Positions 32,111 through 47,198 of a stretch of DNA of 64,000 nt are shown here, piece by piece. The DNA lies in NCBI RefSeq assembly GCF_900119165.1, contig NZ_FPJG01000006.1:3720001-3784000 (forward strand), written 5' to 3'. Under the pieces are notes generated by a model, which searched no databases, had not been told where the DNA came from, and was given only the letters and a program-made list of their open reading frames with translations. Position 1 is the stretch's first letter, and every line of letters begins with the position of its first letter. The position numbers were made by a program, and so were the translations under genes. The stretch is from Amycolatopsis australiensis (lineage in GTDB: Bacteria; Actinomycetota; Actinomycetes; Mycobacteriales; Pseudonocardiaceae).

Positions 32111-32581
32111 TCAGCCGCAGCAGCCCTCCGGCTTGGCCGTCGCGCCGGTTTCGGCGTCGGGTGTGCAGCACGTCGCCGGGGTGACCGGCGCCGCGCTCTC
32201 GGTTCCGAAGGTCGTCGAGTCGGCCTTCACTGTGTAGACCTCCCACGGCTCCTTGCCTGGACCGTGGACCCACACTTTGTCCTGCACCGCGTAGCAGCAC
32301 GTGGTGTCGTCCTCGGTGAGCGTCTCGAGCCCTTCGCCGGTCAGCCGCTTCGTCGCCGCGTTGACCTGGTCGGTCGACTCGACCTCGACGCCGAGGTGGT
32401 CCATCACCGTCTCCTGGCCCGGCTCGCCCTCCAGCAGCACCAGCTTCAGCGCGGGCTCTTCGATCGCGAAGTTCGCGTACCCCGGCCGGAGCTTCGCCGG
32501 CTCGGTGCCGAACAGCTTCGAGTAGAAGTCGATCGATCCGGCCAGGTCTCCGACCCGCAGCGCCAGCTGTACCCGTGACAT
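32111..32581 (-). CDS. arsI: ArsI/CadI-family dioxygenase-fold protein (C-As lyase type)
   Basis: 156 aa with one VOC domain. Metal ligands fit those reported for ArsI: Gln in MSRVQLALRV, His in VMDHLGVEVES, Glu in PWEVYTV. The vicinal thiol pair that binds trivalent organoarsenicals is present (DDTTCCYAVQDKVWV). ArsI breaks the carbon-arsenic bond of trivalent methylated or aromatic arsenicals. A Cys-rich tail (ATCCTPD, EGCCG) extends past the domain. Divergent from arsR at 32665, with shared operator-like dyads. Confidence 0.85.
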   Translation of the reverse strand: MSRVQLALRVGDLAGSIDFYSKLFGTEPAKLRPGYANFAIEEPALKLVLLEGEPGQETVMDHLGVEVESTDQVNAATKRLTGEGLETLTEDDTTCCYAVQDKVWVHGPGKEPWEVYTVKADSTTFGTESAAPVTPATCCTPDAETGATAKPEGCCG

Positions 32582-33027: not shown

Positions 33028-33700
33028 CGACGATCGTGGCGCCGCCGCGACTGTCCGGCTGGACAAGTTCCTGCCGGTCTGGATCGCGGCCGCGATGGTC
33101 GCCGGGCTGCTGGCCGGGCGCCCGGCCTGGACACCGTGCTGTCCGCGGTCCAGGCCGACGGCATCTCGCTGCCGATCGCGCTGGGGCGCGGCAACCGGGA
33201 AGCAGCGGCCGTGCTGGTGGCGCTGAACTCGATGTTCCAGGTGATCGCGTTCGGGCTGCTGAGCTGGGTCTACCTCGCGGTCCTGCCGGGCTGGCTCGGC
33301 CTCCCGCAGGCCGGCTTCACCGTGTTCGAATGGCAGATCGCCAAGAACGTGCTGATCTTCTTCGGCATCCCGCTGGTCCTCTTCGCCTTGCGGGGCGACC
33401 AGATCACCAGCCGCCCGCTGGACGTCGCGCGCATCGCGATCCCGCTGACGGTCTACTTCGGACTGATGGGGGCCGGCTCCTGCGCACTCGGCAAAGCCCC
33501 GGAACTGAACTACGAGCGGACCGCCACGCCGGCGTTCACCGCCGTGGGCAACAACTTCGAACTCGCCCATCGCCACCTTCGGCGCCGCCAGCGGCCAGGC
33601 GCTCGCCGGGGTCGTCGGCCCGCTGGTCGAAGCCCCCGGGCTCGTCGCGCTCGTGTACGTCTCTCTCGCGCTGCGGCGCCGCTTCGCTGAGAACACTTGA
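33024..33700 (+). pseudogene. ACR3 arsenite efflux permease with several internal deletions
   Basis: Family segments appear in order but with gaps: LDKFLPVWIAAAMVAGLLAG, PGLDTVLSAVQADGISLPIA, then a jump of roughly 100 residues to NREAAAVLVALNSMFQVIAF, then WQIAKNVLIFFGIPLV, a second jump of about 40 residues to LFALRGDQITSRPLDVARIA, and AFTAVGNNFELA. A last 10-base loss between GCCATCGCC repeats shifts the frame before GVVGPLVEAPGLVALVYVSL. Further shifts occur near 33045 and 33120. The conserved Cys of the transport site lies in the first missing block. The pump cannot be functional as read. Confidence 0.8.
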
Positions 33701-34283: not shown

Positions 34284-34815
34284 GTGCGGACGACCCCGTC
34301 CTCGGATCCGTCGTGGGCGTATCCGCCGGCGTCCGCCGTGCTCACCCGCTGGTACGGGTGCCGCCGCGGGCGAGCCCTGACGACGTTGACGCTGGTCGCC
34401 GGGTTCGCCGGCACGGTGTTCGCCCCCCTGACCGAGCACCTGAGCTGGTGGACCAGCTACCTCGTGCTCGTGGCCTGGTTCGCGCCGGTCAGGCCGCCAG
34501 GCGGCTGGGGTTCGCGACGCTGGTGAACCGCACCGGCGTACGGACGCGCACCGCCGTCGTGATCGTCCGGCTCGCGGCGACCACCACCTTGCTGGGCGCG
34601 CTGACGTCGGCGGTGGCTCTGGTCTGCGCCTCGGTCCTGGCGGGAATGGCCCGCGGCCTGTTCACGCTGCCGCAGGCGACCGCCGTCGCGGATCGGTGGG
34701 GCACCGCCGGGTACGGACGGCTCAGCGGCCTGCTGTCCACGCCGCTGGTCACCATGTCGGCGGTCGCGCCCTACGCCGGTGCGGCGCCGGCCGCGCTCAC
34801 CGTCGCCGCGGCCCC
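34284..34815 (+). pseudogene. MFS transporter remnant with internal deletions
   Basis: Pieces of one major-facilitator protein lie in different frames: PASAVLTRWYGCRRGRALTT, LVAGFAGTVFAPLTEHLS, TSYLVLVAWFAP, then NRTGVRTRTAVVIVRLAATT and GMARGLFTLPQATAVADRWG, GYGRLSGLLSTPLVTMSAVA. The N-terminal third and the C-terminus are missing. Its 3' end overlaps the tail of the convergent arsC. Such MFS genes are frequent in actinobacterial ars operons. Confidence 0.65.
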
Positions 34816-35208
34816 GGTCAGCTCGGACAGCAGCTCCTGAACCCGGCGCTCGATCTCGTCCCGGATCGGGCGGATCTCCCCGGCCGGGCGCCCGGCGGGG
34901 TCGTCCAGCTTCCAGTCCAGGTAGCGCGTCCCGGGTACCACCGGGCACGCGTCGCCGCAGCCCATCGTGATGACGACGTCGGACCGTTCGACGCTTTCGG
35001 TGGTGAGCTTCTTCGGCTGCTCGCCCGAGAGGTCGATGCCGCGTTCGGCCATGACTTCGACGACGGCGGGGTTGACGGTGTCGGCCGGCGCGGAGCCCGC
35101 CGAGCGGGCGATGACCCGGTCGCCGCCGTGGTGGCGCAGGAACGCCGCAGCCATCTGGGAGCGGCCGGCGTTGTGGACGCAAACGAACAGAACTTTGGGT
35201 ACGGACAC
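34771..35208 (-). CDS. arsC: Arsenate reductase, low-molecular-weight phosphatase type (second copy)
   Basis: 145 aa. P-loop VCVHNAGRSQM, MGCGDACPVVPGTR and DWKLDDPAGR as in the other copy. The last 15 residues (AAATVSAAGAAPA) run over the MFS remnant and are probably an extension caused by deletion of the original 3' flank. It lies downstream of the ArsP-type permease gene on the same strand, 70 bases after it. Confidence 0.88.
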   Translation of the reverse strand: MSVPKVLFVCVHNAGRSQMAAAFLRHHGGDRVIARSAGSAPADTVNPAVVEVMAERGIDLSGEQPKKLTTESVERSDVVITMGCGDACPVVPGTRYLDWKLDDPAGRPAGEIRPIRDEIERRVQELLSELTGAAATVSAAGAAPA

Positions 35209-35278: not shown

Positions 35279-36331
35279 TCACAGGAGCAGCTGGGCGAGG
35301 AAGCCGAGCAGGATGCTGCCGAGCATGCCGAACGCCAGGTACAGCGCGAACACCTTGTTGTTGACCACGCTGCGGACCGCGACCATCGCCGGGATGGTCG
35401 TCACGGACCCGGCGAGCAGGAACGTCACCGCCGCGCCCTGGGCCATGCCCTTCGCGAGCAGGCCGCCGACGATCGGGATCGCGCCGACGCCGTTGAGGTA
35501 GAGCGGGATGCTGATGACCGCGGCGAGCGGGATGGCCAGCCAGCCCTTGTCGCCGCCGAGGATGCTCGTGATGATCCCGTTGGGCACATAGACCCGGATG
35601 ACGCCCTCGAAGACGCACGCGAAGACGAGCCACTTGCCCAGGGACACGGTGTCGCGCAGGAAGTTCCGGCCCGTGATGCGCCAGTTCCGCTTCGACTTCA
35701 AGCTGGCCTTGGCCTGCGGCCACCACGGTGCTCCGTCGTCGTCCTCATCGGGGCCGCAGCCGCCGCCGGCGCAGGAGCCGGTCGACGCGGGCGCCTCGGT
35801 GAGCACGGTCGAGCCGCCGCCGCCGGCGGCCACCGCCACCTGGGCGGGCGCCGCCTGCCGTTCACGCTCGTCGACCGCCGGTTTCTTCTCCGGGCGCAGG
35901 ACGTCCTTGAACCCGCCGCGCTTCTCCACCAGCAGGATGATGACGCCGGCCCCGATCGCCAGCACGAGCGCGCCCAGCAGGCGGGCGGTCGCCAGCGGCA
36001 CGCCGATCTCCTTCGCGGTCAACGCGAAGATCGGCGGGTCCATGGCAGGGGAGGCGATCCAGAAGGACATCACCGCGGACAGCGGCACGCCGCCGCGCAG
36101 CAGCTTGCGGATCAGCGGAATGACGGTGAAAGAGCAGAACGGGCTGAACGCGCCGAGGCACGTGGTGAACAGGACGCCCAGCAACCCGTGCTTGCGGAAC
36201 GAGCGGCGGGCGACGATGTCGAGGTAGAGCAGGTCGACGGTCGCGGCGATGGCCAGGGCGATGAAGAAGAAGATGCTCAGGTCGACCAAGTTCTCCCAGG
36301 CCAAGCGCAGGACCTCGAGGATCTTGTCCAT
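35279..36331 (-). CDS. ArsP/DUF318-type permease (organoarsenical efflux candidate)
   Basis: 350 aa in two membrane halves. The first has the family motif GAFSPFCSFTVIPLIRKLLR, the second VISIPLYLNGVGAIPIVGGL. The central cytoplasmic loop contains SCAGGGCGP, a thiol pair suited to arsenic. ArsP members export trivalent organoarsenicals; the arsinothricin cluster also has a permease (ArsQ). It is divergent from arsL with the palindrome at 36398 between them. Efflux of the cluster product is my inference. Confidence 0.78.
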   Translation of the reverse strand: MDKILEVLRLAWENLVDLSIFFFIALAIAATVDLLYLDIVARRSFRKHGLLGVLFTTCLGAFSPFCSFTVIPLIRKLLRGGVPLSAVMSFWIASPAMDPPIFALTAKEIGVPLATARLLGALVLAIGAGVIILLVEKRGGFKDVLRPEKKPAVDERERQAAPAQVAVAAGGGGSTVLTEAPASTGSCAGGGCGPDEDDDGAPWWPQAKASLKSKRNWRITGRNFLRDTVSLGKWLVFACVFEGVIRVYVPNGIITSILGGDKGWLAIPLAAVISIPLYLNGVGAIPIVGGLLAKGMAQGAAVTFLLAGSVTTIPAMVAVRSVVNNKVFALYLAFGMLGSILLGFLAQLLL

Positions 36332-36397
36332 GCCACCATCCTTGACATCGGGGACCGGTCTCGCGGTGCCGAGGACGCGCAGCTTCCCCCAGCCTTC

Positions 36398-36413
36398 ATC
36401 GATGCTAGTCGAT
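36398..36413. promoter_or_regulatory. Operator ATCGAT-GCTA-GTCGAT, site 1 of 3
   Basis: A 16-bp inverted repeat between the divergent ArsP-type permease (start 36331) and arsL (start 36664). The same pattern, ATCGAY-N4-GTCGAT, recurs at 43754 and 47183, each time in front of an arsenic-cluster gene. Likely bound by one of the cluster ArsR proteins. Confidence 0.7.
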
Positions 36414-36663
36414 GAACGGGGCTCGGTCCATACCTCGTCTGCCGCGGCGAACCACGCTCCAGGGAGCCCGCCGAGGGGGTGATCACAACGTCCGAAAGGA
36501 TGATTCTGGAGCTGAAAACCGTAATCTACCTGCGTTTATCGATCCATTGACATGTATCGCTGAAGCATGCCATCGTGATGCTCGCGTACGAGACGAGGCC
36601 CTCCGCCGGGCCGGTTCCGCTGGGGGAGCCAATCCTTTTGTCCGATTCAGTTGTGGGGGAAGC

Positions 36664-37917
36664 ATGCCCGCTGCGCGTGTACTGGTCGCATCCGCCTTCG
36701 AAGCCGAGCTGCAGCCGCTGACCTCCGCGTGCGCCGGTGCCGCGATGCGGGCGCAGGGCGCCGACGTCGCGGGCTGGGACGCCCACAAGAACCCGGACGC
36801 CGTACCGGACGGCGAGTTCGACCTGATCCTGCTGTCGGTGCAGCAGTTCGAGGGTGTCGAGCGTGGCCTGAACCTCGCCGCCCGGCTGCGGGAATCCTTC
36901 GGTGGAGCCAAGCTGGTCGCCTTCGGGCAGTACGCCCAGATGAACCACCGCCGGTTCCTCGAAACGGCCGACGCGATCGTGATGGAAGAACCGGAGCTCG
37001 TCGCGGCCGAACTGGCCGAGGTGGCGCGAGGCGAGCGCGAGGTCGCCGCCGTGCCGGCATCGATGACCGCGCGGGGGATGCGGCCGAAACCGCCGCACCG
37101 GCGCATCACCGTTCCGGCCCCGGCTCGTGACCTGTTCCCGTCCTTGGTGCACTACCCGGCCCACCACTCACCGTACGGGTTGATGGGCAACGTCGAGGTC
37201 ACCCGTGGCTGCCACCACAAGTGCACGTACTGCTCGGTGTACGGCGCCTATGACGGCGGAGTCGCCGCCTACAACGCCGACACCGTCCTGGCCGACTGCC
37301 TGCAGCTGGCCGAGGAAGGCGTCCGGCACTTCTGCTTCATCGACGCCGAATTCTTCAACTCCCGCACCATCGGCGCCGGCGTCGTCCGCCGCCTGGTCGA
37401 CGAGATCGGCCCGATCACCTTCGAGTTCACCACCCGCGTCGACCACATCCTCAGCTACCGGAAGGAACTCACCGAACTCGTGTCGCTCGGGCTGGTGAAG
37501 GTGACCTCGGCGCTGGAGTTCCCCTCGAACCGGATCCTGCGGATCTTCGACAAGCACATCGACGTCGACCACATGCGCGCCGCGATCGCCGAAGCCGAAC
37601 GCCTCGGGTTCGTGCTGTACCCGACGTTCATCCCGTTCACGCCGTGGGTGGAGTACGACGAGCTGCTCACCTTCGAAGACTTCCTCGTCGACACCGGGCT
37701 GGCGAAGGTCACCGACCCCACCGCCCTGCAGACAAGGCTGCTGCTGTTCAAGGGCTCGCCGCTGCTGTCCTCGCCGTGGATGGAGGACATCGCCACCGTC
37801 GACCGCGGGCTGTGGGTCGAGTGGACCCATCCGGACCGCCGCGTCGAGGAGCTGTGGACCGAGCGCCGCGCGGACGCCGAGGACGTCGGCAAGGTGCGCT
37901 GCTGCGTGAAGTGCTGA
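36664..37917 (+). CDS. arsL: ArsL-like radical SAM enzyme
   Basis: 417 aa; ATG at 36664 after GGGGGAAG is preferred, though the frame is open further back. Residues 1-130 are a cobalamin-domain-like Rossmann segment (ILLSVQQFEGVERGLNLA). The radical SAM cluster motif is TRGCHHKCTYCSV (Cys about 183, 187, 190). The protein ends RCCVKC, matching the C-terminal RCCxKC described for ArsL of the arsinothricin pathway, which transfers the SAM 3-amino-3-carboxypropyl group to arsenite. That match and the ars context make the assignment. First gene of a run of seven. Confidence 0.82.
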   Translation: MPAARVLVASAFEAELQPLTSACAGAAMRAQGADVAGWDAHKNPDAVPDGEFDLILLSVQQFEGVERGLNLAARLRESFGGAKLVAFGQYAQMNHRRFLETADAIVMEEPELVAAELAEVARGEREVAAVPASMTARGMRPKPPHRRITVPAPARDLFPSLVHYPAHHSPYGLMGNVEVTRGCHHKCTYCSVYGAYDGGVAAYNADTVLADCLQLAEEGVRHFCFIDAEFFNSRTIGAGVVRRLVDEIGPITFEFTTRVDHILSYRKELTELVSLGLVKVTSALEFPSNRILRIFDKHIDVDHMRAAIAEAERLGFVLYPTFIPFTPWVEYDELLTFEDFLVDTGLAKVTDPTALQTRLLLFKGSPLLSSPWMEDIATVDRGLWVEWTHPDRRVEELWTERRADAEDVGKVRCCVKC

Positions 37918-37943
37918 AGACCGATCGGGAGGGACAGCGAGCA

Positions 37944-39203
37944 ATGGGTGGAGCGCCGCGCGTCGTGGTGAAAACCGGGCAGGGACTGCCGGATCTGGAC
38001 TGGGAAGGAGAACTGGCCGACCTCACCGACGTCTTCCCCTATCTCGGCCCGACCTGGCTGGGCGCAAGCGAGAAGGCGCTCACCGACCTGCAGCCGTGGC
38101 ACACGGTCGCGACCCGTGCCCGCGGCGAGCTGGCGTTGCTGCCCGGGTACGTGATGACCACACCGCCGGTCGTCGACCACGAGCCGCGCACCTACCTGGG
38201 CTGGCAGGCCCCGACGGGCGAGGAAGTCTGCTGCGGTGCGCAGACCGACGCGTGCATCAGCGGCGAAGTCGACGCCCTCGGCACCGAGCCGTTCTTCCCC
38301 GCGCTGCTGCTCGGCTCCCCGCTGGGCTACCGCACCGAAGTGGCCTACAACTTCTGGACGCCCAGCCTGATGGCGCAGCTGGTGTCCGAGCTGGTTCCGG
38401 CGGCGTTCGAGCAGGGCATCAAGTGCATCGTCGCGCCGTGGATCTCCGGCCGCAGCGGCAACGACGCGCTCGTCACCGCGCTGGAACAGGCCGGTGGGCA
38501 CAGCACCTTCTGGGGCTACGAGGACTACCTGCGCCTCGACGCCGGCTCCTGGGACGGGCACCTGGCCGCATTGCCGCTGAAGAAGCGCCAGCGGATCAAG
38601 AGCGACGTCCGCCGCGCCGAGGCGGCCGGGGTGCGCGTCGAGCGCGTCGACGGCGAAGCCATCCGCCCCTACGTCACCCGGATCGCCGAATTGACCTGCC
38701 TCAACCGGGAGAAGAACGGCGCCGGCGAAGAACCCGCGCACATCATCGACGTGCTGACCGCCCTGCTGGACGCCCGCGCGGACGTGCGGGCCTACCTCGG
38801 CACGAAGGACGGCGCACTGGTCGCGACCTGCGTCGTGATCCGCAAGCACCACCGGCTGTTCCCGAAGTGGGCGGGCTTCGACTACGCCGCCATCGGCGAG
38901 CGCAGCGGCATCTACTTCGCCCTCGTCCTCGACGCCCCGGTCCGCGACGCCTACGCCGAGGGCCTGCGCACCGTCGAGTTCGGCGCGGGCGCGCACCAGG
39001 CGAAGGTGCTGCGCGGCTGCACCCCGCGGCCGGTCACCACCGCGATGGTGGTGTCCGATCCGCAGCTGCGCCCGCAGGTGGCGAAGTGGATGGACGCCTT
39101 CGGTGCCAGCCGCCGCGTCGCGTTCGGGGACGCCCCGGCTGCCACCCGCACCCCGCTGCCGATCGTCTCCGGAGGGTCCGGCGCCTGCTGCTCGGACGGC
39201 TGA
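37944..39203 (+). CDS. GNAT-fold protein (Acetyltransf_6/BioF2-like) of the arsenical cluster
   Basis: 419 aa, ATG after GGGAGGGAC. N-terminal region with FPYLGPTWLGASEKALTDL; the C-terminal 200 residues have the FemAB/BioF2-like acetyltransferase layout (LPLKKRQRIKSDVRRAEAAG, then GIYFALVLDAPVRDAYAEGL and VEFGAGAHQAKVLRG). It ends SGACCSDG, a vicinal Cys pair. Family members acylate amino groups with acyl-CoA or aminoacyl-tRNA. Possible roles are N-acylation or aminoacylation of the arsenical. It lies 26 bases after arsL. Confidence 0.7.
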   Translation: MGGAPRVVVKTGQGLPDLDWEGELADLTDVFPYLGPTWLGASEKALTDLQPWHTVATRARGELALLPGYVMTTPPVVDHEPRTYLGWQAPTGEEVCCGAQTDACISGEVDALGTEPFFPALLLGSPLGYRTEVAYNFWTPSLMAQLVSELVPAAFEQGIKCIVAPWISGRSGNDALVTALEQAGGHSTFWGYEDYLRLDAGSWDGHLAALPLKKRQRIKSDVRRAEAAGVRVERVDGEAIRPYVTRIAELTCLNREKNGAGEEPAHIIDVLTALLDARADVRAYLGTKDGALVATCVVIRKHHRLFPKWAGFDYAAIGERSGIYFALVLDAPVRDAYAEGLRTVEFGAGAHQAKVLRGCTPRPVTTAMVVSDPQLRPQVAKWMDAFGASRRVAFGDAPAATRTPLPIVSGGSGACCSDG

Positions 39204-39224
39204 CACCACTGGGAGGACATGCTC

Positions 39225-40337
39225 GTGATCACCTTCGTGCCGCTGACCGGGTTCCTCGGGGCCGGCAAGACCACCACGATGATCGCCACCGCGCAGGCGC
39301 TGCAAGCGCGGGGCCGCCGCGTCGCGGTGATCACCAACGACCAGGGCGTCGAGCTCGTCGACACCGCGTTGGTGCGCAGCCAGCTCGACTCCGTCGCCGA
39401 AGTCACCGGCGGCTGCTTCTGCTGCCGCTTCGAGGACCTCGTCGACACCATCCGCGCGCTCGTCGACGGCGCCGGCGACAGGCCGGTCGACACGGTGATC
39501 GCCGAGGCCGTCGGCTCGTGCACCGACCTGCAGGCCACCGTCGTCCGGCCGCTGCGCGCCCACTACGGCGACAGCATGGTCGTCAGTCCGCTCACGACAG
39601 TCATCGACCCCTTGCGGTACTTGGCTTTCGACCGCGCCGCCCAGCGCGGTGAGCCGGAGTCGGACCTGTCGTACCTGTTCCGGCAGCAGCTGACCGAGGC
39701 CGACGTCATCGCCGTGAACAAGCTCGACACGATCGCGCCGGACCGCGCCACCGAGCTGATGACACGGCTGGCCGCCGACTACCCGAACGCGGCGGTCGTC
39801 GGCTACAGCGCCAAGTCGGGCGACCGCGTCGACGAGCTGGTCGAGGCGTGGGACGGGCCGTCCGGCAACCAGGCGGTCGACCTGCAGGTCGACTACGACC
39901 GCTACGCCGCCGCCGAAGCTCAGCTGGCCTGGATGAACCAGGACGTGCAGCTGACCTCGGAGGCGCCGCTCGACCTCACGGCATGGGGCAGGCAGATGCT
40001 CGCCGCACTCGGCGCCTGGGCGAACTGCGCCGGTGCCGTCGTCGGTCACGCCAAGCTGACCGTCGAGGCCGGCGACGGCGACTTCGCCAAGCTCAGCCTC
40101 ACGGCCGCCGGCGCGGAACCGACGGTCGACCGGGCATCCGAGAAACAGGCGACCTCAGCTCGGGTGATCGTCAACGCCCGCGTCGCCTGCGAGCCCGCCG
40201 AACTCGACGCCGCCGTCCGCGACGCCGTGGCCACGGCGAACGCCGCCACCGGAGCCCGTTCCGCGGCCACCGCGCCGGTGTCGTTCAAACCCGGCTACCC
40301 CACCCCGGTCCACCGGCTCGCCGCCACCGGCGCCTGA
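39225..40337 (+). CDS. CobW/COG0523-family GTPase
   Basis: 370 aa; GTG at 39225 gives proper spacing from GGGAGGA, while the ATG at 39219 is too close. Walker A GFLGAGKTT, the metal-binding motif GGCFCCRF (CxCC), and the guanine-specificity motif VNKLD. The family supplies metals to enzymes using GTP. The C-terminal half (FKPGYPTPVHRL at the end) is less conserved. In this operon it may serve a metal centre or handle As(III) through the CxCC thiols; both are inference. Confidence 0.78.
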   Translation: MITFVPLTGFLGAGKTTTMIATAQALQARGRRVAVITNDQGVELVDTALVRSQLDSVAEVTGGCFCCRFEDLVDTIRALVDGAGDRPVDTVIAEAVGSCTDLQATVVRPLRAHYGDSMVVSPLTTVIDPLRYLAFDRAAQRGEPESDLSYLFRQQLTEADVIAVNKLDTIAPDRATELMTRLAADYPNAAVVGYSAKSGDRVDELVEAWDGPSGNQAVDLQVDYDRYAAAEAQLAWMNQDVQLTSEAPLDLTAWGRQMLAALGAWANCAGAVVGHAKLTVEAGDGDFAKLSLTAAGAEPTVDRASEKQATSARVIVNARVACEPAELDAAVRDAVATANAATGARSAATAPVSFKPGYPTPVHRLAATGA

Positions 40338-40352
40338 CCCCGAAAGACGACC

Positions 40353-41108
40353 ATGACCGACACCACGACCGAGATCCAGGACTACTACCGCGGAAAAGCC
40401 GCCGAGGCCGCGGAGGCGAAGAGCTGCTGCGCTCCGGACCCGACGCGATTCGGGCCCGGTGCCTACAGCGACATCGGCCCCGGTGAAGCCTCCGACGCCG
40501 CGCTGCTGGCCAGCCTCGGCTGCGGCAATCCCACCGCCGTGGCCGAGCTGCGCGAGGGCGAAACCGTCCTGGACCTCGGCTCCGGCGCCGGGCTGGACCT
40601 CATCCTGTCCGCGCGCCGCGTCGGCCCGGACGGGCAGGTCTTCGGCCTGGACTTCCTCGAGGAGATGCTCGCCGTCGCCCGGCAGAACATCGAGGACGCC
40701 GAGATCGACAACGTCGTCCTGCTCAAAGGCACCATCGAGCAGATCCCGCTCCCCGCCGCCACTGTCGACGTCATCATCTCCAACTGCGTGATCAACCTGT
40801 CGGTGGACAAGCCGGCGGTGTTCGCCGAAATGGCGCGCGTGCTCGCGCCCGGCGGCCGGCTCGGGATCACCGACGTCGTCGCCGAGGACCACCTCACGCC
40901 CGCCGACCGGGCCGAGCGCGGCGGCGTCAGCCAGTGCATCGCCGGCGCCCTGTCCCAGGCCGAATACCTCTCGCTGCTGGCCGAGGCCGGGCTGATCGAC
41001 GCCGAGGTCGTGTTCACCCAGGACGCCGCGGACGGCATGCACTCCGCCATCATCCGCGCCCGCAAGCCGGGCACCGGCGAGTGCGGGCCCGGCAGCGGCT
41101 GCTGCTGA
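40353..41108 (+). CDS. arsM: Arsenite S-adenosylmethionine methyltransferase
   Basis: 251 aa. SAM motif I VLDLGSGAGLDLILSARRVG, the ArsM hallmark ISNCVINLSVDKPAVFAEMA, and QCIAGALSQAEYL supply the conserved cysteines; an N-terminal pair (KSCCAPDP) is also present. It ends SGCC. ArsM methylates As(III); in arsinothricin synthesis it methylates hydroxyarsinothricin. Fifteen bases after the CobW gene. Confidence 0.9.
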   Translation: MTDTTTEIQDYYRGKAAEAAEAKSCCAPDPTRFGPGAYSDIGPGEASDAALLASLGCGNPTAVAELREGETVLDLGSGAGLDLILSARRVGPDGQVFGLDFLEEMLAVARQNIEDAEIDNVVLLKGTIEQIPLPAATVDVIISNCVINLSVDKPAVFAEMARVLAPGGRLGITDVVAEDHLTPADRAERGGVSQCIAGALSQAEYLSLLAEAGLIDAEVVFTQDAADGMHSAIIRARKPGTGECGPGSGCC

Positions 41109-41144
41109 CCACCGAGGTTTCCGACCACTGAGGGGAGTACCTGG

Positions 41145-42179
41145 ATGTCTTTCACCGCCATAGTCGTGTTCGTCCTGGTCGCCGCGCTGGCGGCGGTCAA
41201 CGGCAGCAACGACGTCCCCAAGGGCGTCGCCACCCTGGCCGGGGCCGGGGTCACCAAGTACCGGTCGGCGATCCTCTGGGGCACGATCACGACGCTGGCC
41301 GGCTGCGTCTGCTCGCTCGGGCTGGCGTCGAAGATGACGGCCCTGTTCTCCAAGGGCATCATCACCGGCGCCACGACCGACGCGTTCGCCGTCGCCGTGC
41401 TCGCCGGCGCCGCGTTCTGGGTCGGCCTGGCGACCGTGCTGCGGCTGCCCGTCTCCACGACCCATGCCCTCATCGGCGGCATGGTCGGCGCCGGCCTGCT
41501 GATGAGCACCGGCGGTGTCTCCTGGAGCGCCGTCGGCAGCAAGCTCGTCACGCCGCTGCTGGTCAGCATCGTCGTCGCCTACGCCGTCACGCTCGTCCTC
41601 ACCGTGGCCACCGGTGCCACGAACAAGCGCCGGTCCGCGAGCACCCCGCCGGTCACCCCCGCCTCCGACGGCGGCGACGTGGCCGTGAAGACCGCGCCGG
41701 CGCCGGAGAAGACCTCGTCCCGGTTCATCACCGGGGCCCACTGGTTCACCAGCGGCGCCACCGGCTTCGCCCGCGGCCTCAACGACACCCCGAAGATCGT
41801 CGCCATCGGCGCGTTCGCCCTGGTCCCGGCCGGGATGAAGCCGTGGCACATCATGGTACTGGTGACCGCCGCCATGGCCGCCGGATCGCTGCTGGGCGGG
41901 ATGCGGGTCGCGGAGAAGCTCGGCGAAGGCGTGGTCAAGATGAACCACCGCGAAGGCTTCCTCGCCAACCTCACCACCGCCGCCCTCGTCGGCGTCGGCG
42001 CGGGTGCCGGCCTGCCGATGTCGACCACGCACGTGTCCACCGGTGCGATCGCGGGATCCGCCGGCCCGAACCTCAGCCGGATTTCCGGCGGGACGGTCCG
42101 GAACTTCCTGATCGCCTGGCTGGTCACCCCGCCCGTCGCCGGGGTCGTCGCGGCCCTGGTGTTCATCTTGGCTCGCTAG
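41145..42179 (+). CDS. PiT-family inorganic phosphate (possibly arsenate) transporter
   Basis: 344 aa with the duplicated PiT signature: NGSNDVPKGVATLAG and RLPVSTTHALIGGMVG in the first half, RGLNDTPKIVAIGAF and LPMSTTHVSTGAIAG in the second. PiT carriers import phosphate, and arsenate by mimicry. Its place between arsM and arsR suggests it brings in arsenate as raw material, or replaces phosphate uptake under arsenic stress. Both are inference. Confidence 0.85.
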   Translation: MSFTAIVVFVLVAALAAVNGSNDVPKGVATLAGAGVTKYRSAILWGTITTLAGCVCSLGLASKMTALFSKGIITGATTDAFAVAVLAGAAFWVGLATVLRLPVSTTHALIGGMVGAGLLMSTGGVSWSAVGSKLVTPLLVSIVVAYAVTLVLTVATGATNKRRSASTPPVTPASDGGDVAVKTAPAPEKTSSRFITGAHWFTSGATGFARGLNDTPKIVAIGAFALVPAGMKPWHIMVLVTAAMAAGSLLGGMRVAEKLGEGVVKMNHREGFLANLTTAALVGVGAGAGLPMSTTHVSTGAIAGSAGPNLSRISGGTVRNFLIAWLVTPPVAGVVAALVFILAR

Positions 42180-42188
42180 CCTGGCGGA

Positions 42189-42539
42189 GTGAGCGAGCAC
42201 AAGCTGGAGCGGGAGACCGCCGAGTCCTACGCCCGCTGGTTCCACGCGCTGTCGGACGCGAACCGGGTCATGATCGTGCACTTCCTGGCCCAGCAACGCG
42301 ATCCGGTTCCCGTCGGCGCGATCGTGGAGCATCTCGGCATCGCCCAGCCCACGGTCTCCCACCACCTGAAGATCCTGTCCCAGGTCCGGTTCGTCACCCG
42401 CCGCCGAGCCGGGACCAGCATCCTCTACGCGATCAACCACAGCTGCGAAGTCGGCCTGCCCACCGCCGCCAACGTCGTCCTCGGCCTGCTGGCCACGCGT
42501 GACGGCGACGGCCAGGTTCCCCTGGAAAGGACGTCGTGA
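42189..42539 (+). CDS. arsR: ArsR-family repressor inside the arsenical operon
   Basis: 116 aa, GTG start ten bases after the PiT gene. Recognition helix AQPTVSHHLKILSQVRFV; C-terminal NHSCEVGLPTAANVVLG with a single conserved Cys. This subfamily (Cys plus PxAAxVVxG) also includes 31356 and the ArsR half of 43799. It overlaps the ATP-grasp gene by four bases. One of the two cluster ArsR domains probably binds the ATCGAY-N4-GTCGAT sites. Confidence 0.85.
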   Translation: MSEHKLERETAESYARWFHALSDANRVMIVHFLAQQRDPVPVGAIVEHLGIAQPTVSHHLKILSQVRFVTRRRAGTSILYAINHSCEVGLPTAANVVLGLLATRDGDGQVPLERTS

Positions 42540-43750
42540 CCGAGCACCCGGCGCTGTTGCTGGTCGGCAGCGGGGACCGCCGCTACCGCGAATACATCCT
42601 GGCCGCGCTGCGGCCGCACTTCCGGTTGTGGCTGCTCGACTCGGTCGAGCCGACCTGGCAGACCGCCCACGTCGATGGCGTCACCGTCGTCGACACCCGC
42701 GACCCCTCGGCCCTCGCCGAAGCCGCGGACAAGCTCGGCTTCCAGCCGGACGGCGTGCTGACCTACGACGAATCCCTGGTCACCGCGGTCGCCGCCTTCG
42801 CGCGGGACGCCGGGCTCCCGGGGAGCCCGCCGGAGGCCGTCCGGGCTTGCCGGGACAAGGCCGCGACCCGCGCCGTGCTCGCCGACGCCGGGGTGCCGCA
42901 GCCCGCGTCCCGGCCCGTCGCTTCCGCCGAGGACGCCGTCGCCGCGGCCGAGGACATCGGCTACCCGGTGGTGGTCAAGGCCCGTGGCCTGGCCGGCAGC
43001 CTCGGCGTCCTGCGCGCCGGCACCGCCGGGCAGGTCGCCGAGGCGTTCACCGCCGCCGCCGGAGCGTCCTGGCCCGGCGTGCCGCGCTACGAAGCCGACG
43101 TGCTGGTCGAGGAGCTGCTCACCGGGCCGGAGATCAGCGTCGACGCCGTCGTCGGCCACGGCGTCTGCCACCCGCTCGTCATCGCCCGCAAGCAGACCGG
43201 CTTCGAGCCGTTCTTCGAGGAGACCGGCCACGTCGTCGCCGCGGACGACCCGCTGTTCGACGACGCCGCCCTGCTCGACCAGCTCGACCGGGTCCACAAG
43301 GGCATCGGCTTCACCCACGGCGCCACCCACACCGAGTTCAAGCTGACCCCGCGCGGCCCGCGCCTGGTCGAGATCAACGCTCGCCTGGGCGGCGACTTCA
43401 TCCCGCGGCTCGGCATCCTCGCCGGCGGCGCCGACCCGGTCGTCGCGGCCGGCCAGGTCGCCGTCGGCCGCCCGCCGGCCCCGCGTCGCACGCTGCGCCG
43501 GACCGCCGTGATCCGCTTCCTCTACCCGGCCCGCGACTGCGAGGTCGCCGCCACCACCGTGCACCCCGAGCGGTTCGGCCCCACCGTCCACGAGGCCCTC
43601 GGCACCGCCGGGCCCGGCACCGAGCTCGCGCTCCCGCCGCGCGCCTACCTCGCCCGCTACGGGCACGTCATCACCGCCGGCGACGACCACGACCGGGTCA
43701 TCGCCGACCTGGCCCACGCCGGGGAGCTCGTCGAGCTGCACACCGCCTGA
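42536..43750 (+). CDS. ATP-grasp ligase, L-amino-acid-ligase-like
   Basis: 404 aa, GTG start overlapping arsR (GTGA). N-terminal preATP-grasp domain, then the ATP-grasp core with GYPVVVKARGLAGSLGV and the metal motif VEINARLGGDFIPRL. The C-terminal domain (LALPPRAYLARYGHVITAGD) resembles the LAL_C2 domain of BacD/L-amino-acid ligases, which join two amino acids through an acyl phosphate. A substrate with a free amino group, such as arsinothricin, would fit. I infer formation of a dipeptide or similar conjugate. Confidence 0.78.
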   Translation: MTEHPALLLVGSGDRRYREYILAALRPHFRLWLLDSVEPTWQTAHVDGVTVVDTRDPSALAEAADKLGFQPDGVLTYDESLVTAVAAFARDAGLPGSPPEAVRACRDKAATRAVLADAGVPQPASRPVASAEDAVAAAEDIGYPVVVKARGLAGSLGVLRAGTAGQVAEAFTAAAGASWPGVPRYEADVLVEELLTGPEISVDAVVGHGVCHPLVIARKQTGFEPFFEETGHVVAADDPLFDDAALLDQLDRVHKGIGFTHGATHTEFKLTPRGPRLVEINARLGGDFIPRLGILAGGADPVVAAGQVAVGRPPAPRRTLRRTAVIRFLYPARDCEVAATTVHPERFGPTVHEALGTAGPGTELALPPRAYLARYGHVITAGDDHDRVIADLAHAGELVELHTA

Positions 43751-43753
43751 ACC

Positions 43754-43769
43754 ATCGACGGCCGTCGAT
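43754..43769. promoter_or_regulatory. Operator ATCGAC-GGCC-GTCGAT, site 2 of 3
   Basis: A perfect palindrome 30 bases before the arsR-arsN fusion gene and 4 bases after the ATP-grasp stop. Same pattern as sites 36398 and 47183. Probably autoregulation by the fusion protein. Confidence 0.75.
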
Positions 43770-43798
43770 CGCCCACCTGGGTGAGGCACAATCGGGAC

Positions 43799-44641
43799 AT
43801 GACGACGACCGCGCCCGCCGCCGCGCTGCTGCCCGTCGAGGACGCCGCGACCTACGCCGAATGGTTCGCCTGCCTCGCCGACACGACGCGGGTGCGGATC
43901 CTGCACGCCGTCGCGGCCGCGGGCAAGGCCGTCACCATCGGCGAGATCACCGAGCAGATGGCGATCAGCCAGTCCAACTGCTCCCACCACGTCCGCAAGC
44001 TCGCCGACGTCGGCTTCGTGCGGCTGCGCAAGGTCGGCACCGCCACTCTCGTGTCGGTCAACGCCTCCTGCGCCGTGAGCCTCCCGCACGCCGCCGACGT
44101 CGTCATGGGCCTGCTCGCCCCCAAGCCCGCCGAGCCCGGCGACCTCGCCCCGGACCTCACCGTCCGGCCCCTGCGCGCCAAGGACTGGCCGGCGGTGCGG
44201 CGCATCTACGGCGAAGGCATCGCCACCGGCGACGCGACCTTCGAAACCGAGGTCCCGCCGCGCGCCGAGCTGGAGGCGAGGTGGTTGCGCGGGCACCGCT
44301 GGGTCGCCGAGGTCGACGGGCAGGTCGCCGGCTGGGCCGCCGCGGCCGCGGTGTCCACCCGCGACTGCTACGCCGGCGTCGCCGAAACGTCGGTGTACGT
44401 GGGCGAGAAGTTCCGCGGCCGCGGCGTCGGCAAGGCCCTCATGCACCGGCTCGTCGCCGTCGCCGACGAAGGCGGCCTGTGGACGCTGCAGACCTCGATC
44501 TTCCCCGAGAACCGCAACGGCGTCGCCCTGCACCACGGCGCCGGGTTCCGCACTGTCGGCATCCGCGAGCGCATCGGCGAGCACAACGGCCGGTGGCGCG
44601 ACACCGTCCTGCTCGAACGGCGCCGCGCCTCCCAGCTGTGA
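43799..44641 (+). CDS. ArsR-ArsN fusion: repressor domain joined to an N-acetyltransferase
   Basis: 280 aa; ATG at 43799, with little leader. Residues 1-110 are an ArsR domain (AISQSNCSHHVRKLADVGFV; SCAVSLPHAADVVMG). Residues 118-280 are a Pat/ArsN1-type GNAT (VRPLRAKDWPAVRRIYGEGI, YVGEKFRGRGVGKALMHRLV, FPENRNGVALHHGAGFRTVG). ArsN1 acetylates the amino group of arsinothricin, and related Pat acts on phosphinothricin, giving resistance. Joining sensor and resistance enzyme on one chain points to self-protection. Converges on the molybdoenzyme gene, three bases apart. Confidence 0.85.
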   Translation: MTTTAPAAALLPVEDAATYAEWFACLADTTRVRILHAVAAAGKAVTIGEITEQMAISQSNCSHHVRKLADVGFVRLRKVGTATLVSVNASCAVSLPHAADVVMGLLAPKPAEPGDLAPDLTVRPLRAKDWPAVRRIYGEGIATGDATFETEVPPRAELEARWLRGHRWVAEVDGQVAGWAAAAAVSTRDCYAGVAETSVYVGEKFRGRGVGKALMHRLVAVADEGGLWTLQTSIFPENRNGVALHHGAGFRTVGIRERIGEHNGRWRDTVLLERRRASQL

Positions 44642-44644
44642 CCT

Positions 44645-47137
44645 TCAGGCCTTGCTGATCCGGCAGGCGAAGCACTTGTACGCCTGCTGGCCGGACAGGT
44701 TGTCGTAGAACGCGTCGTCGACCAGCCCGTTGACGGCCTCGTAGCGCGGGTCGCCGAACTGGTCGCCGACCTGCTGGGCTGGCCCGAAGGTGTTCGGCAC
44801 GAAGATCGTGTCCGGCCGGATCGCCGGCCAGAACAGCGCCGTGCCGGTCACCTTCCCGCGCGGGCTCTCCACGACGACGGTGTCGCGGTCGCCGATCCCG
44901 AACCGCCGCGCGGTATCCGGGTGCACCTGGACCAGGCGGATCCCGTTGAGCTGCTCGCCGGTCGGCGTCCAGTGCGTCACCGACGCGAAGTGCACGACGC
45001 TCGGCCGCCCGGTCATGCCCATCAGCGGGAAGTCGCGGTGCACCGCGTCCGAGCCCGGGACGCCGAGGCGCACTTTGTGCGTCACCGCCTGCGGATTGAC
45101 CGGGTTGGTGACGAACCCGGGCTCGTACGCGATCGTCGGGTTCGCACCGGTGACCTCGGGGTGGGTGTAGAACACCGGGAGCGCCCGGTGCCCGGCCGCG
45201 GCGAGCTTGCGGTCCAGCTCCGGGGTGAAAATCTCGACGTTCCCGCTCGGCGTGAGGAATCGCTTGCCCGGCGCGCCGAGCGCGGCCGCCGCCTCGTACC
45301 AGGAGGGGTGGTCGAGGTAGAGCGTGCTGACGCCGGGGTGCGACGGCGCCGGGCACGGCCAGCGCAGCGGCTCGGCGCGGGCGTCCATGCGCTGCTGCGT
45401 CATCCCGCCCATCGCCGGGGTGTGCTCGACGAACTCCGCCCACAGCTGCGAATAGTCCTTCCAGCTTTGCGGGAAGGCGTCGGTCCAGTAGCCCGCGGGC
45501 TTCTTCCGGTCAAGGCGGCCGAAGGCGTGGGCGAGGTCGATCCAGATTTCCCAGTCCGGCTTGCACTGCCCGGCACGTGGCACGGCGGCGTGCTGCCAGC
45601 GGATCGCGCGGTCGTCGCGTCGCATGTAGACGCCGTCCAGCTCCAGACCGCTGCACACGGGCAGGATGACGTCGGCGTAGTAGGCGGCCTCCTCCATGAA
45701 CAGGCCGGTGTAGACGTAGAAGTCCAGCTTCTCGAACGCCTCGCGGACCTTGTTGGTGTTCGCTGACGAAATCAGCGGGTTGCCCTCGGTGATGACGGCC
45801 TTCAGCGGATATGGGCGGCCGGTGAGGATCGATTCGGCGAAGTAGTCCGGCCCGACCGGCAGCGCCTGCTCCAGCGGCGGCGTGGCCACCGTCAGCTCGG
45901 GCAGCCGCAGGTCGCCGGGCCAGGTGTTGTGCATGAAGTTGCACCCGCCGCCCGGGACGCCGATGTTGCCGGTGACCGCGGCCAGGAACGTCAGGACGCG
46001 GTAGGTGTCGAAGGCGCCGAGCTGGTGGGAGATCCCGGCGTTGCAGAAGATCGCGGCGGGCTTGGCCGTGGCGTAGTCCTCGGCGAGCTGGCGGATCGTC
46101 GCGGCCGGCACGCCGGTGACGCCGGCCGCCCAGTCGGGGGTGTAGTCCTTGACGTGGTCGCGTAGTTCGGCGAACCCGAGCACCCAGCGCCGCACGAACG
46201 CCTTGTCGTGGAGGTCGCGGGCGATGATGTGCTGGAGCATGCCGAGCACGAGCGCCAAGTCGGTGTGCGGTTTCGGCGCGACCCAGGTGTCGGCGGCCGC
46301 GCCGGTCGGGGTCCGGCGGGGGTCGACGACGACGAGCTTCGCCTTGGTTTTCGCTCTGCTTCTGAGCAGGTAGTCGAAGGTGACCGGGTGCGTCTCGGCC
46401 TGGTTGGTGCCGAGGAACAGCAGGTACTTCGCCGCACCGAGATCCTCCCGGCCGGTGGCGGCGTCGACGCCGTAGCCGTTGGTGAAGTTCCCGAGCCCGA
46501 AGGTCGTGGCGAGGGCGTCGCCGCCGGCGTCGTTGCAGACCGGGCCCACGTCGGTGTTGTTCGGGCTGCCCAGCAGCGCGAACAGGCGTGCGACCAGCGA
46601 GCCGGTGCCGCGGGGAAGCCGCCCGGTGGTGCGGTTGGCGATCGACTTCACCTGCCCGCTGTCGCGCAGCCGCAGGAGCCGGTCGGCGATGAGGTCGAGG
46701 GCGTCGTCCCAGGAGACCGGCTCGAACCTGGAGTCCTTCGAGCCCTTGGCGCCGGACACCCGGCGCAGGGGAGTGGTCAGCCGCAGCGGGCTGTAGGCCA
46801 GCTCCGGCATCATCGACGCCTTCACACAGAAGTTGCCGGCCTGGACCGGATCGTCCGGATCACCGGAGACGCTGATGACCCGACCGGCCCGGATGCCGAC
46901 CTTGAGGCGGCAGTTCGAGTTGCAGAACTGGCAGGCCGTCGAGACGACGGTGTCCGGGTGAAGGGCGGCCGAATCGGTGGTGAAGTTGAGCGCTCCTCCG
47001 CCGATCGGGCCGCCGTGGTGGGCGTCCGGCTGCGCGGGATCGGCGGCAGCGGCGGCCGGGTCGACGAACAGGGACGCGCCGCTGATCACGGCACCTTGCA
47101 CGAAACCTCGGCGTGACAGACCGGTGAAATCGTCCAT
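44645..47137 (-). CDS. Tat-exported molybdopterin oxidoreductase (DMSO reductase family), ArrA/ArxA-like cluster spacing
   Basis: 830 aa; ATG at 47137. Twin-arginine signal LSRRGFVQGAVISG. The [4Fe-4S] motif is CQFCNSNC plus a further Cys 27 residues on: CX2CX3CX27C, the spacing of arsenate respiratory ArrA and arsenite-oxidising ArxA, though also of some PsrA/PhsA-like enzymes. Molybdopterin-binding blocks follow (FLGTNQAETHPVTFDYLL, VVDPRRTPTGAAADTW). It ends YKCFACRISKA with an extra CxxC. No iron-sulfur or membrane subunit is adjacent. The operator at 47183 places it in the arsenical regulon. Confidence 0.75.
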   Translation of the reverse strand: MDDFTGLSRRGFVQGAVISGASLFVDPAAAAADPAQPDAHHGGPIGGGALNFTTDSAALHPDTVVSTACQFCNSNCRLKVGIRAGRVISVSGDPDDPVQAGNFCVKASMMPELAYSPLRLTTPLRRVSGAKGSKDSRFEPVSWDDALDLIADRLLRLRDSGQVKSIANRTTGRLPRGTGSLVARLFALLGSPNNTDVGPVCNDAGGDALATTFGLGNFTNGYGVDAATGREDLGAAKYLLFLGTNQAETHPVTFDYLLRSRAKTKAKLVVVDPRRTPTGAAADTWVAPKPHTDLALVLGMLQHIIARDLHDKAFVRRWVLGFAELRDHVKDYTPDWAAGVTGVPAATIRQLAEDYATAKPAAIFCNAGISHQLGAFDTYRVLTFLAAVTGNIGVPGGGCNFMHNTWPGDLRLPELTVATPPLEQALPVGPDYFAESILTGRPYPLKAVITEGNPLISSANTNKVREAFEKLDFYVYTGLFMEEAAYYADVILPVCSGLELDGVYMRRDDRAIRWQHAAVPRAGQCKPDWEIWIDLAHAFGRLDRKKPAGYWTDAFPQSWKDYSQLWAEFVEHTPAMGGMTQQRMDARAEPLRWPCPAPSHPGVSTLYLDHPSWYEAAAALGAPGKRFLTPSGNVEIFTPELDRKLAAAGHRALPVFYTHPEVTGANPTIAYEPGFVTNPVNPQAVTHKVRLGVPGSDAVHRDFPLMGMTGRPSVVHFASVTHWTPTGEQLNGIRLVQVHPDTARRFGIGDRDTVVVESPRGKVTGTALFWPAIRPDTIFVPNTFGPAQQVGDQFGDPRYEAVNGLVDDAFYDNLSGQQAYKCFACRISKA

Positions 47138-47182
47138 CGGGACCACCCCCAGAAGAGAGGAAGGGACACAGCGCGCGACTCC

Positions 47183-47198
47183 ATCGACACGCGTCGAT
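47183..47198. promoter_or_regulatory. Operator ATCGAC-ACGC-GTCGAT, site 3 of 3
   Basis: A 16-bp inverted repeat 46 bases upstream of the molybdoenzyme start. Same half-sites as sites 36398 and 43754. Confidence 0.75.

Follow-up and report, generated by a model that had tools for sequence, protein, structure and literature searches.

An arsL operon of Amycolatopsis australiensis with a FemX-like transferase and an ATP-grasp ligase, a candidate for arsenic-containing peptide biosynthesis

Arsinothricin, an inhibitor of glutamine synthetase, needs two enzymes and an exporter. What, then, would be made by a locus in which the radical SAM gene arsL stands with a transferase and a ligase that are additional to the minimal arsQML set? 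Such a locus lies in a 64,000-nucleotide stretch of the 9.3 Mb genome of Amycolatopsis australiensis (the window, to which the coordinates and strands below refer). An earlier note on this DNA named ten genes here. All ten are open and in place in the translated open reading frames, and Pfam and NCBIfam scans, which covered 14 proteins at 32.1–47.1 kb of the window, agree with the families that it gave, apart from its GNAT, ArsM and ArsN1, which are refined below. From arsL to arsRN, eight genes run on the + strand with intergenic gaps of 9–36 nt or, in one place, a 4-nt overlap. As the same core turns up in 24 actinobacterial loci, this grouping is not due to chance. It is probable that an arsenic-containing amino acid is assembled here, to which ordinary amino acids are then joined. 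With moderate confidence, we interpret the cluster as a biosynthetic operon, regulated by arsenic, whose product is an arsenic-containing peptide, and we infer the chemical steps, their order and the amino acids added.

The ArsL protein

The first gene of the operon, arsL (36664–37917, +), encodes a 417-residue radical SAM protein with a CX3CX2C motif (CHHKCTYC) and a C-terminal RCCVKC. Its start is placed near 36664, not at 36412 of the longest frame, because its homologs are mostly 414–418 residues long. With 506.8 bits, it passes the cut-off of 450 set for NF040542, "arsinothricin biosynthesis radical SAM protein ArsL". The earlier note had identified it as ArsL and had named its phylogeny as the check. 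In a tree of 56 proteins, 24 actinobacterial rows with an RCC tail form a group (support 99), 11 RCC-tail rows from other phyla (support 79) lie on the same side, and 21 rows with CUAEP/CCAEP-like tails lie on the opposite side (support 100). The tree is a quick search over loci L009–L059, plasmid loci and the window, with long branches flagged; L038, a partial match, dropped out, and L060–L088 are omitted. The identification holds on both counts: the protein passes the curated cut-off and groups with the RCCxKC-tail proteins.

By these sequence tests the window protein is ArsL. By analogy, its predicted activity is the transfer of the 3-amino-3-carboxypropyl group of S-adenosylmethionine (SAM) to As(III), which would form hydroxyarsinothricin. 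According to PMC8552651, ArsL and ArsM of Burkholderia gladioli yield hydroxyarsinothricin and arsinothricin in E. coli.

The FemX-like transferase and its association with arsL

Directly behind arsL lies the gene of a 419-residue FemX-like protein (37944–39203, +), which the earlier note had listed as a GNAT. Its domains are of the FemAB_like/Acetyltransf_6 kind: at E 0.001 it matches only PF04339 (51.1 bits, cut-off 27) and PF13480, and there is no match to PF02388, which we take to be the classical FemAB family. Neither single-query nor profile searches gave a meaningful sequence match to solved chains. An AlphaFold2 (AF2) model compared with the Protein Data Bank (PDB) displays a tandem GNAT fold nearest to FemX and its natural-product relatives. 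Enzymes that depend on aminoacyl-tRNA head both fold comparisons and fill the first 22 rows of one of them, followed by coenzyme A (CoA) enzymes. A plain N-acetyltransferase is set aside for this reason, and the protein is most likely an aminoacyl-tRNA-dependent transferase, as judged from the model.

The protein has a cysteine pair at residues 96–97, a terminal CC, and the residues Trp309 and Lys354. Lys354 is kept in 36 of 36 rows of a hand-picked alignment (31 of them from 120 listed proteins of a 153-match search), and its distance from the tryptophan, 45 residues, is the same as in DhpH-C. By this spacing only, it is likened to the catalytic lysine of FemX (Lys305) and DhpH-C (Lys329). 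The source annotation, "GNAT family N-acetyltransferase", would instead suit a CoA-dependent acyltransferase, in which case the product would be N-acylated and the ligase would act elsewhere. This is quite improbable in view of the first 22 rows of the fold comparison and the invariant lysine with its DhpH-C-like spacing; furthermore, the Q/RxxGxG/A motif finds no match at any one position common to the 36 rows.

Some features of the model and sequence speak against an aminoacyl-tRNA-dependent enzyme. In Foldseek, CoA-dependent VipF acetyltransferases (1.1e-8) rank ahead of S. aureus FemX (2.5e-8) and FemA (1.7e-7). The TM-scores are moderate, 0.53–0.70 by target length in the ten best, and a common fold does not prove the use of aminoacyl-tRNA. 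Asn325 and Phe328 of DhpH-C have no positional equivalents in the FemX-like protein, which carries Ala350 and Ala353 there.

The FemX-like gene lies 9–37 bp downstream of arsL in 24 of 24 actinobacterial loci, of which 23 come from a collection scan (the best 80 of 137 loci) and one, L157, from a whole-genome search. A CobW gene is found in 23 of these loci, and ArsM follows CobW in 21. Among Pseudonocardiaceae, nine of 390 genomes have an RCC-tail arsL gene (seven exceed the NF040542 cut-off and two, at 441.6 and 441.4, lie just below it). Nine of 386 have the FemX-like gene; these are the same nine, and the two genes are always adjacent. If kinship is ignored, such a coincidence would arise by chance about once in 5e17; its real weight is lower, because five of the other eight carriers share the window's genus. 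Nor are the locus counts independent, since Streptomyces supplies 14 of the 23 collection-scan loci and a single genus six of the nine family carriers. ArsL is rare: in a phylum-wide sample, it exceeds the cut-off in one of 396 genomes, the window's own. The extension of the gene set is not peculiar to the A. australiensis strain, and the earlier note was right to regard both the ligase and the "GNAT" as additional to arsQML, as both recur with arsL. The latter is most likely not an acetyltransferase.

The flanks of these loci vary. In ten Streptomyces loci (L011–L014, L016–L020, L022), an ATP-binding cassette (ABC) transporter permease and a phosphate-type binding protein, one of each scanned, are encoded divergently from arsL. 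Large opposite-strand frames upstream of arsL are alike in L021, L024, L025 and L026; the only one scanned, that of L024, encodes a radical SAM protein whose B12-binding match stays below the cut-off.

FemX-like genes are also found near genes of another carbon–arsenic route. There are ten matches in 121 Streptomyces genomes: three lie beside arsL (G393, G396, G879), six (49–52% identity) have a bsnM-like gene at a distance of about 2 kb and a bsnN-like gene next to it, and one is a weak match with stops (G856). The bsnM/bsnN labels follow the pair of 5-enolpyruvylshikimate-3-phosphate (EPSP) synthase and phosphoglycerate mutase described in PMC12159101, not a comparison with the S. lividans sequences; there, both genes are reported to be required for bisenarsan. 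bsnM-like genes (E < 1e-150) are present in 11 of the 121 genomes, six with the FemX-like gene and five without it. A class I aminotransferase is also encoded in the six and would be in keeping with an arseno-amino acid. The window operon is convergent with a gene for a molybdopterin oxidoreductase (44645–47146, −; assigned by Pfam and NCBIfam) that has a twin-arginine stretch, SRRGF, near its N-terminus, and homologs of this molybdoenzyme (71–72% identity) lie near the bsnM-like genes in all five loci that lack the FemX-like gene (L209–L213), one of which (L213) is beside a polyketide synthase (PKS). Another homolog (72%) is found beside CobW in Microbispora (L028). Since FemX-like genes accompany both arsL and bsnM-like genes, the family tracks organoarsenical synthesis and not one route in the loci examined. 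Neither an EPSP synthase nor a phosphoglycerate mutase is among the 14 scanned window proteins; a search of the whole genome for bsnM was not made.

The ATP-grasp ligase and the proposed peptide

The second putative amide-forming enzyme is an ATP-grasp ligase of the L-amino-acid-ligase type (42536–43750, +), whose gene overlaps by 4 nt with that of an ArsR-family repressor (42189–42539, +; NF033788, 76.7 bits, cut-off 55). Apart from its place in a tree of such proteins, the assignment is based on PF13535 (51.4 bits, cut-off 27) and on the best solved-chain matches, which are L-amino-acid ligases (PDB 3vot, 9.3e-19, and BacD); the LAL_C2 domain PF18603 stays below its cut-off (23.2 of 29.4 bits). 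In 17 of the 24 actinobacterial loci, an ATP-grasp gene is found no more than about 12 kb from arsL, inside the fetched loci in 13 cases and just beyond them in four (L012, L013, L014, L020). Three loci without it have a second FemX-like gene near arsL (L029:7266–8393, L030:15106–16266 and L157:16350–17501), and the two kinds of gene occur together in none of the fetched stretches. Altogether, 20 of the 24 loci carry a second amide-forming gene. In Amycolatopsis anabasis (L023:15465–17075), ArsR and the ATP-grasp ligase are encoded in one open frame of 536 residues.

These counts bear on a simpler product. The cluster might make plain arsinothricin or hydroxyarsinothricin, with the FemX-like enzyme and the ligase capping its amino or carboxyl group to shield the producer's glutamine synthetase, and the cap being removed at export. 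Direct coupling of the FemX-like gene to arsL would fit such a role, as would the ArsN1-like domain in the operon, for NCBIfam attributes arsinothricin resistance to acetylation of the ArsN1 type. But a second amide-forming gene is usual, which exceeds the need of a single cap, and no peptidase is recognised among the 14 scanned proteins, so that capping appears unlikely. A peptide is favoured over a simple cap mainly because two unrelated amide-forming families recur, one apparently replacing the other at some of the loci.

The peptide pathway would begin with the PiT-family carrier (PHO4; 41145–42179, +; PF01384, 186.9 bits, cut-off 33.7), which would import arsenate for reduction by ArsC. 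The latter is a likely arsenate reductase of the low-molecular-weight phosphatase fold (34771–35208, −), over the cut-off of PF01451 but below that of the NCBIfam arsenate reductase models (86.5 of 157.6). ArsL would then place the 3-amino-3-carboxypropyl group on As(III) to give trivalent hydroxyarsinothricin, which a 251-residue ArsM-type methyltransferase (40353–41108, +; Pfam/NCBIfam) may methylate to arsinothricin. The FemX-like enzyme, gripping the trivalent arsenical partly via its cysteine pairs, would couple the arseno-amino acid with an amino acid taken from aminoacyl-tRNA, and the ligase would attach a second amino acid, using ATP. Export would be the task of the ArsP-type permease, a candidate exporter encoded divergently from the operon (35279–36331, −; PF03773, 156.4 bits, cut-off 32.3). 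Self-protection and control would fall to ArsR and to a fusion of an ArsR domain with an ArsN1-like acetyltransferase (43781–44641, +; NF033788, 56.6 bits, cut-off 55), a candidate self-resistance protein. Its ArsN1-like part reaches 140.2 of the 170 bits of NF040503 (ArsN1 family A). Thus, of the ArsM and ArsN labels given earlier, the ArsM-type family and the ArsR–ArsN1-like fusion are retained, but the curated arsinothricin ArsM and ArsN1 models are not reached.

Several observations are unfavourable to the peptide proposal. The branch leading to the actinobacterial ArsL rows is long (2.23 changes per column), and the window ArsL is only 34.5% identical to that of the Pseudomonas amygdali arsQ-arsL-arsM plasmid locus. 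ArsM falls below both curated arsinothricin models (112.3 of 500 and 76.5 of 240 bits; NF040538/NF040539). The FemX-like gene is found in none of seven proteobacterial RCC-tail arsL loci and is not annotated in the seven plasmid arsL records inspected, out of 16 with an RCC tail. An ATP-grasp gene is near arsL in one of the seven proteobacterial loci, that of Vogesella, and in none of the other six. Four of the 24 actinobacterial loci have neither an ATP-grasp nor a second FemX-like gene; two of these have long flanks (L028, L031), and in the other two the contig ends 9.7 kb (L027) or 2.5 kb (L025) after arsL. No tRNA genes lie within the window.

Related ATP-grasp genes are found in arsL loci of Priestia (two records), Alicyclobacillus, Pantoea (two), Klebsiella and Vogesella, and there is none near arsL at the P. 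amygdali plasmid locus. One common origin for all arsL-linked ATP-grasps is rejected (approximately unbiased test, p-AU 0.000328) in a tree whose background consists of actinobacterial paralogs only, which limits what it says on the origin of the non-actinobacterial group. By sequence comparison, ligase-type ATP-grasps have apparently joined arsL clusters twice. The nearest paralog outside arsL loci (60%) is that of S. litmocidini (L198/L204); its surroundings contain no further match to the window query proteins, and it says little about the substrate. In a Klebsiella pneumoniae record (L176), the plasmid that carries arsL together with ATP-grasp, major facilitator superfamily (MFS), arsM and CobW-type genes is classed as conjugative (IncFIA, IncFII).

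A tentative generalisation, plausible but a little short of persuasive, is that bacteria hold a widespread, unrecognised class of arsenic peptides. A FemX-like, aminoacyl-tRNA-dependent transferase specialised for arseno-amino acids would serve both known actinobacterial routes to the carbon–arsenic bond (ArsL and BsnM/BsnN), and, to lengthen arsinothricin, ATP-dependent amino acid ligases would have been taken up on two or more occasions, in Actinomycetota and in Bacillota/Pseudomonadota.

Neighbouring genes and comparison with known systems

Between the FemX-like gene and arsM lies the gene of a CobW/COG0523-type GTPase with a GCFCC motif (39219–40337, +; PF02492, 96.8 bits, cut-off 20.7). 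Compared along its full length with the CobW of a Priestia arsL plasmid, it shows 40.7% identity (275 bits); the values are 40.8% for the Alicyclobacillus protein and 35–36% for those of Pantoea and Klebsiella. Other CobW-like matches in five actinobacterial genomes checked are part-length and reach 56.5 bits at most, and the arsL-linked proteins therefore form a CobW subfamily found in three phyla. COG0523 proteins are commonly supposed to deliver metals. Small proteins with cysteine pairs occur in three arsL loci (L171, L172, L174). Two kinds are common to Priestia and Alicyclobacillus, one of them annotated as carboxymuconolactone decarboxylase family, and a Pantoea arsL locus encodes an unmatched small protein that ends in CCS.

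Outside the operon, the window encodes an ArsI/CadI family metalloenzyme, a possible C–As lyase (32111–32581, −; NF041414, 206.9 bits, cut-off 116). The only matches to the arsenite-efflux protein Acr3 in the genome are three fragments at 33181–33661 of the window, all below the cut-off, so the Acr3 gene seems to be degraded; ArsB-type efflux lay outside the search. These fragments, the nearby Ars resistance genes and the cysteine pairs of the FemX-like protein would all suit an arsenic-detoxification island, in which ArsL, ArsM and other proteins sequester arsenic or make it volatile, and a peptide made by the ligase and the FemX-like enzyme serves as an arsenic carrier and not as a secreted metabolite. 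Such a function is very improbable, because an ArsL of the characterised type makes hydroxyarsinothricin (PMC8552651) and the gene set has a scattered distribution (9 of 390 family genomes), like accessory metabolite clusters.

Neither a FemX-like nor an ATP-grasp gene is named for arsL clusters in the titles and opening abstract lines of the listed papers on arsinothricin and related topics; the full texts (on ArsL in vitro, on bisenarsan, and in Genome Biol Evol, 2016) may mention them. If the actinobacterial relatives of arsinothricin are peptides, they would represent a new class of arsenic natural products and would tie aminoacyl-tRNA and ATP-grasp chemistry to arsenic metabolism. The FemX-like gene would then serve as a marker for organoarsenical clusters, whatever the route to their C–As bond, and would help to explain the products of bsnM/bsnN-like clusters without a PKS.

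Among known systems, the arsQML locus of Burkholderia gladioli GSRB05, as described in PMC8552651, shares with the window an ArsL-type radical SAM protein, an ArsM, a permease, and ArsR and PiT nearby. The ArsL comparison itself was made with the P. amygdali locus, not with B. gladioli ArsL. Unlike GSRB05, the window has another type of ArsM and added FemX-like, CobW and ATP-grasp genes; its arsL-side permease is ArsP, and the GntP-like permease ArsQ is absent from the 14 scanned proteins. The bsn (bisenarsan) clusters are likewise actinobacterial organoarsenical pathways, and some bsnM-like loci share the FemX-like family with the window while others share the molybdoenzyme. They differ in that their C–As bond is formed without SAM enzymes, according to PMC12159101, and in the PKS beside one bsnM-like locus (L213).

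The FemX-like protein resembles DhpH-C and DhpK of dehydrophos and BD-12 Orf11 (PMC12945691), as well as Sbb17 and Sba18 (PDB 9wqw and 9wqy), in its tandem GNAT fold, its conserved lysine and tryptophan and, putatively, the formation of an amide bond on a small molecule. The same source gives a phosphonate amino acid as the substrate of DhpH-C. Unlike this group, the window protein has extra cysteine pairs, a putative arseno-amino acid substrate, and no meaningful sequence match to a solved chain. The ligase belongs to the same ATP-grasp family as the L-amino-acid ligases BL00235 and BacD (PDB 3vot and 3vmm). Unlike these, it is encoded inside an arsL operon.

In the case of bialaphos (phosphinothricin tripeptide), a glutamate-mimic amino acid is carried as a peptide that is made by nonribosomal peptide synthetases (NRPSs); the genes scanned at 32–47 kb of the window include no NRPS. 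The proposed arsenic peptide would resemble bialaphos in being a peptide-borne glutamate mimic.

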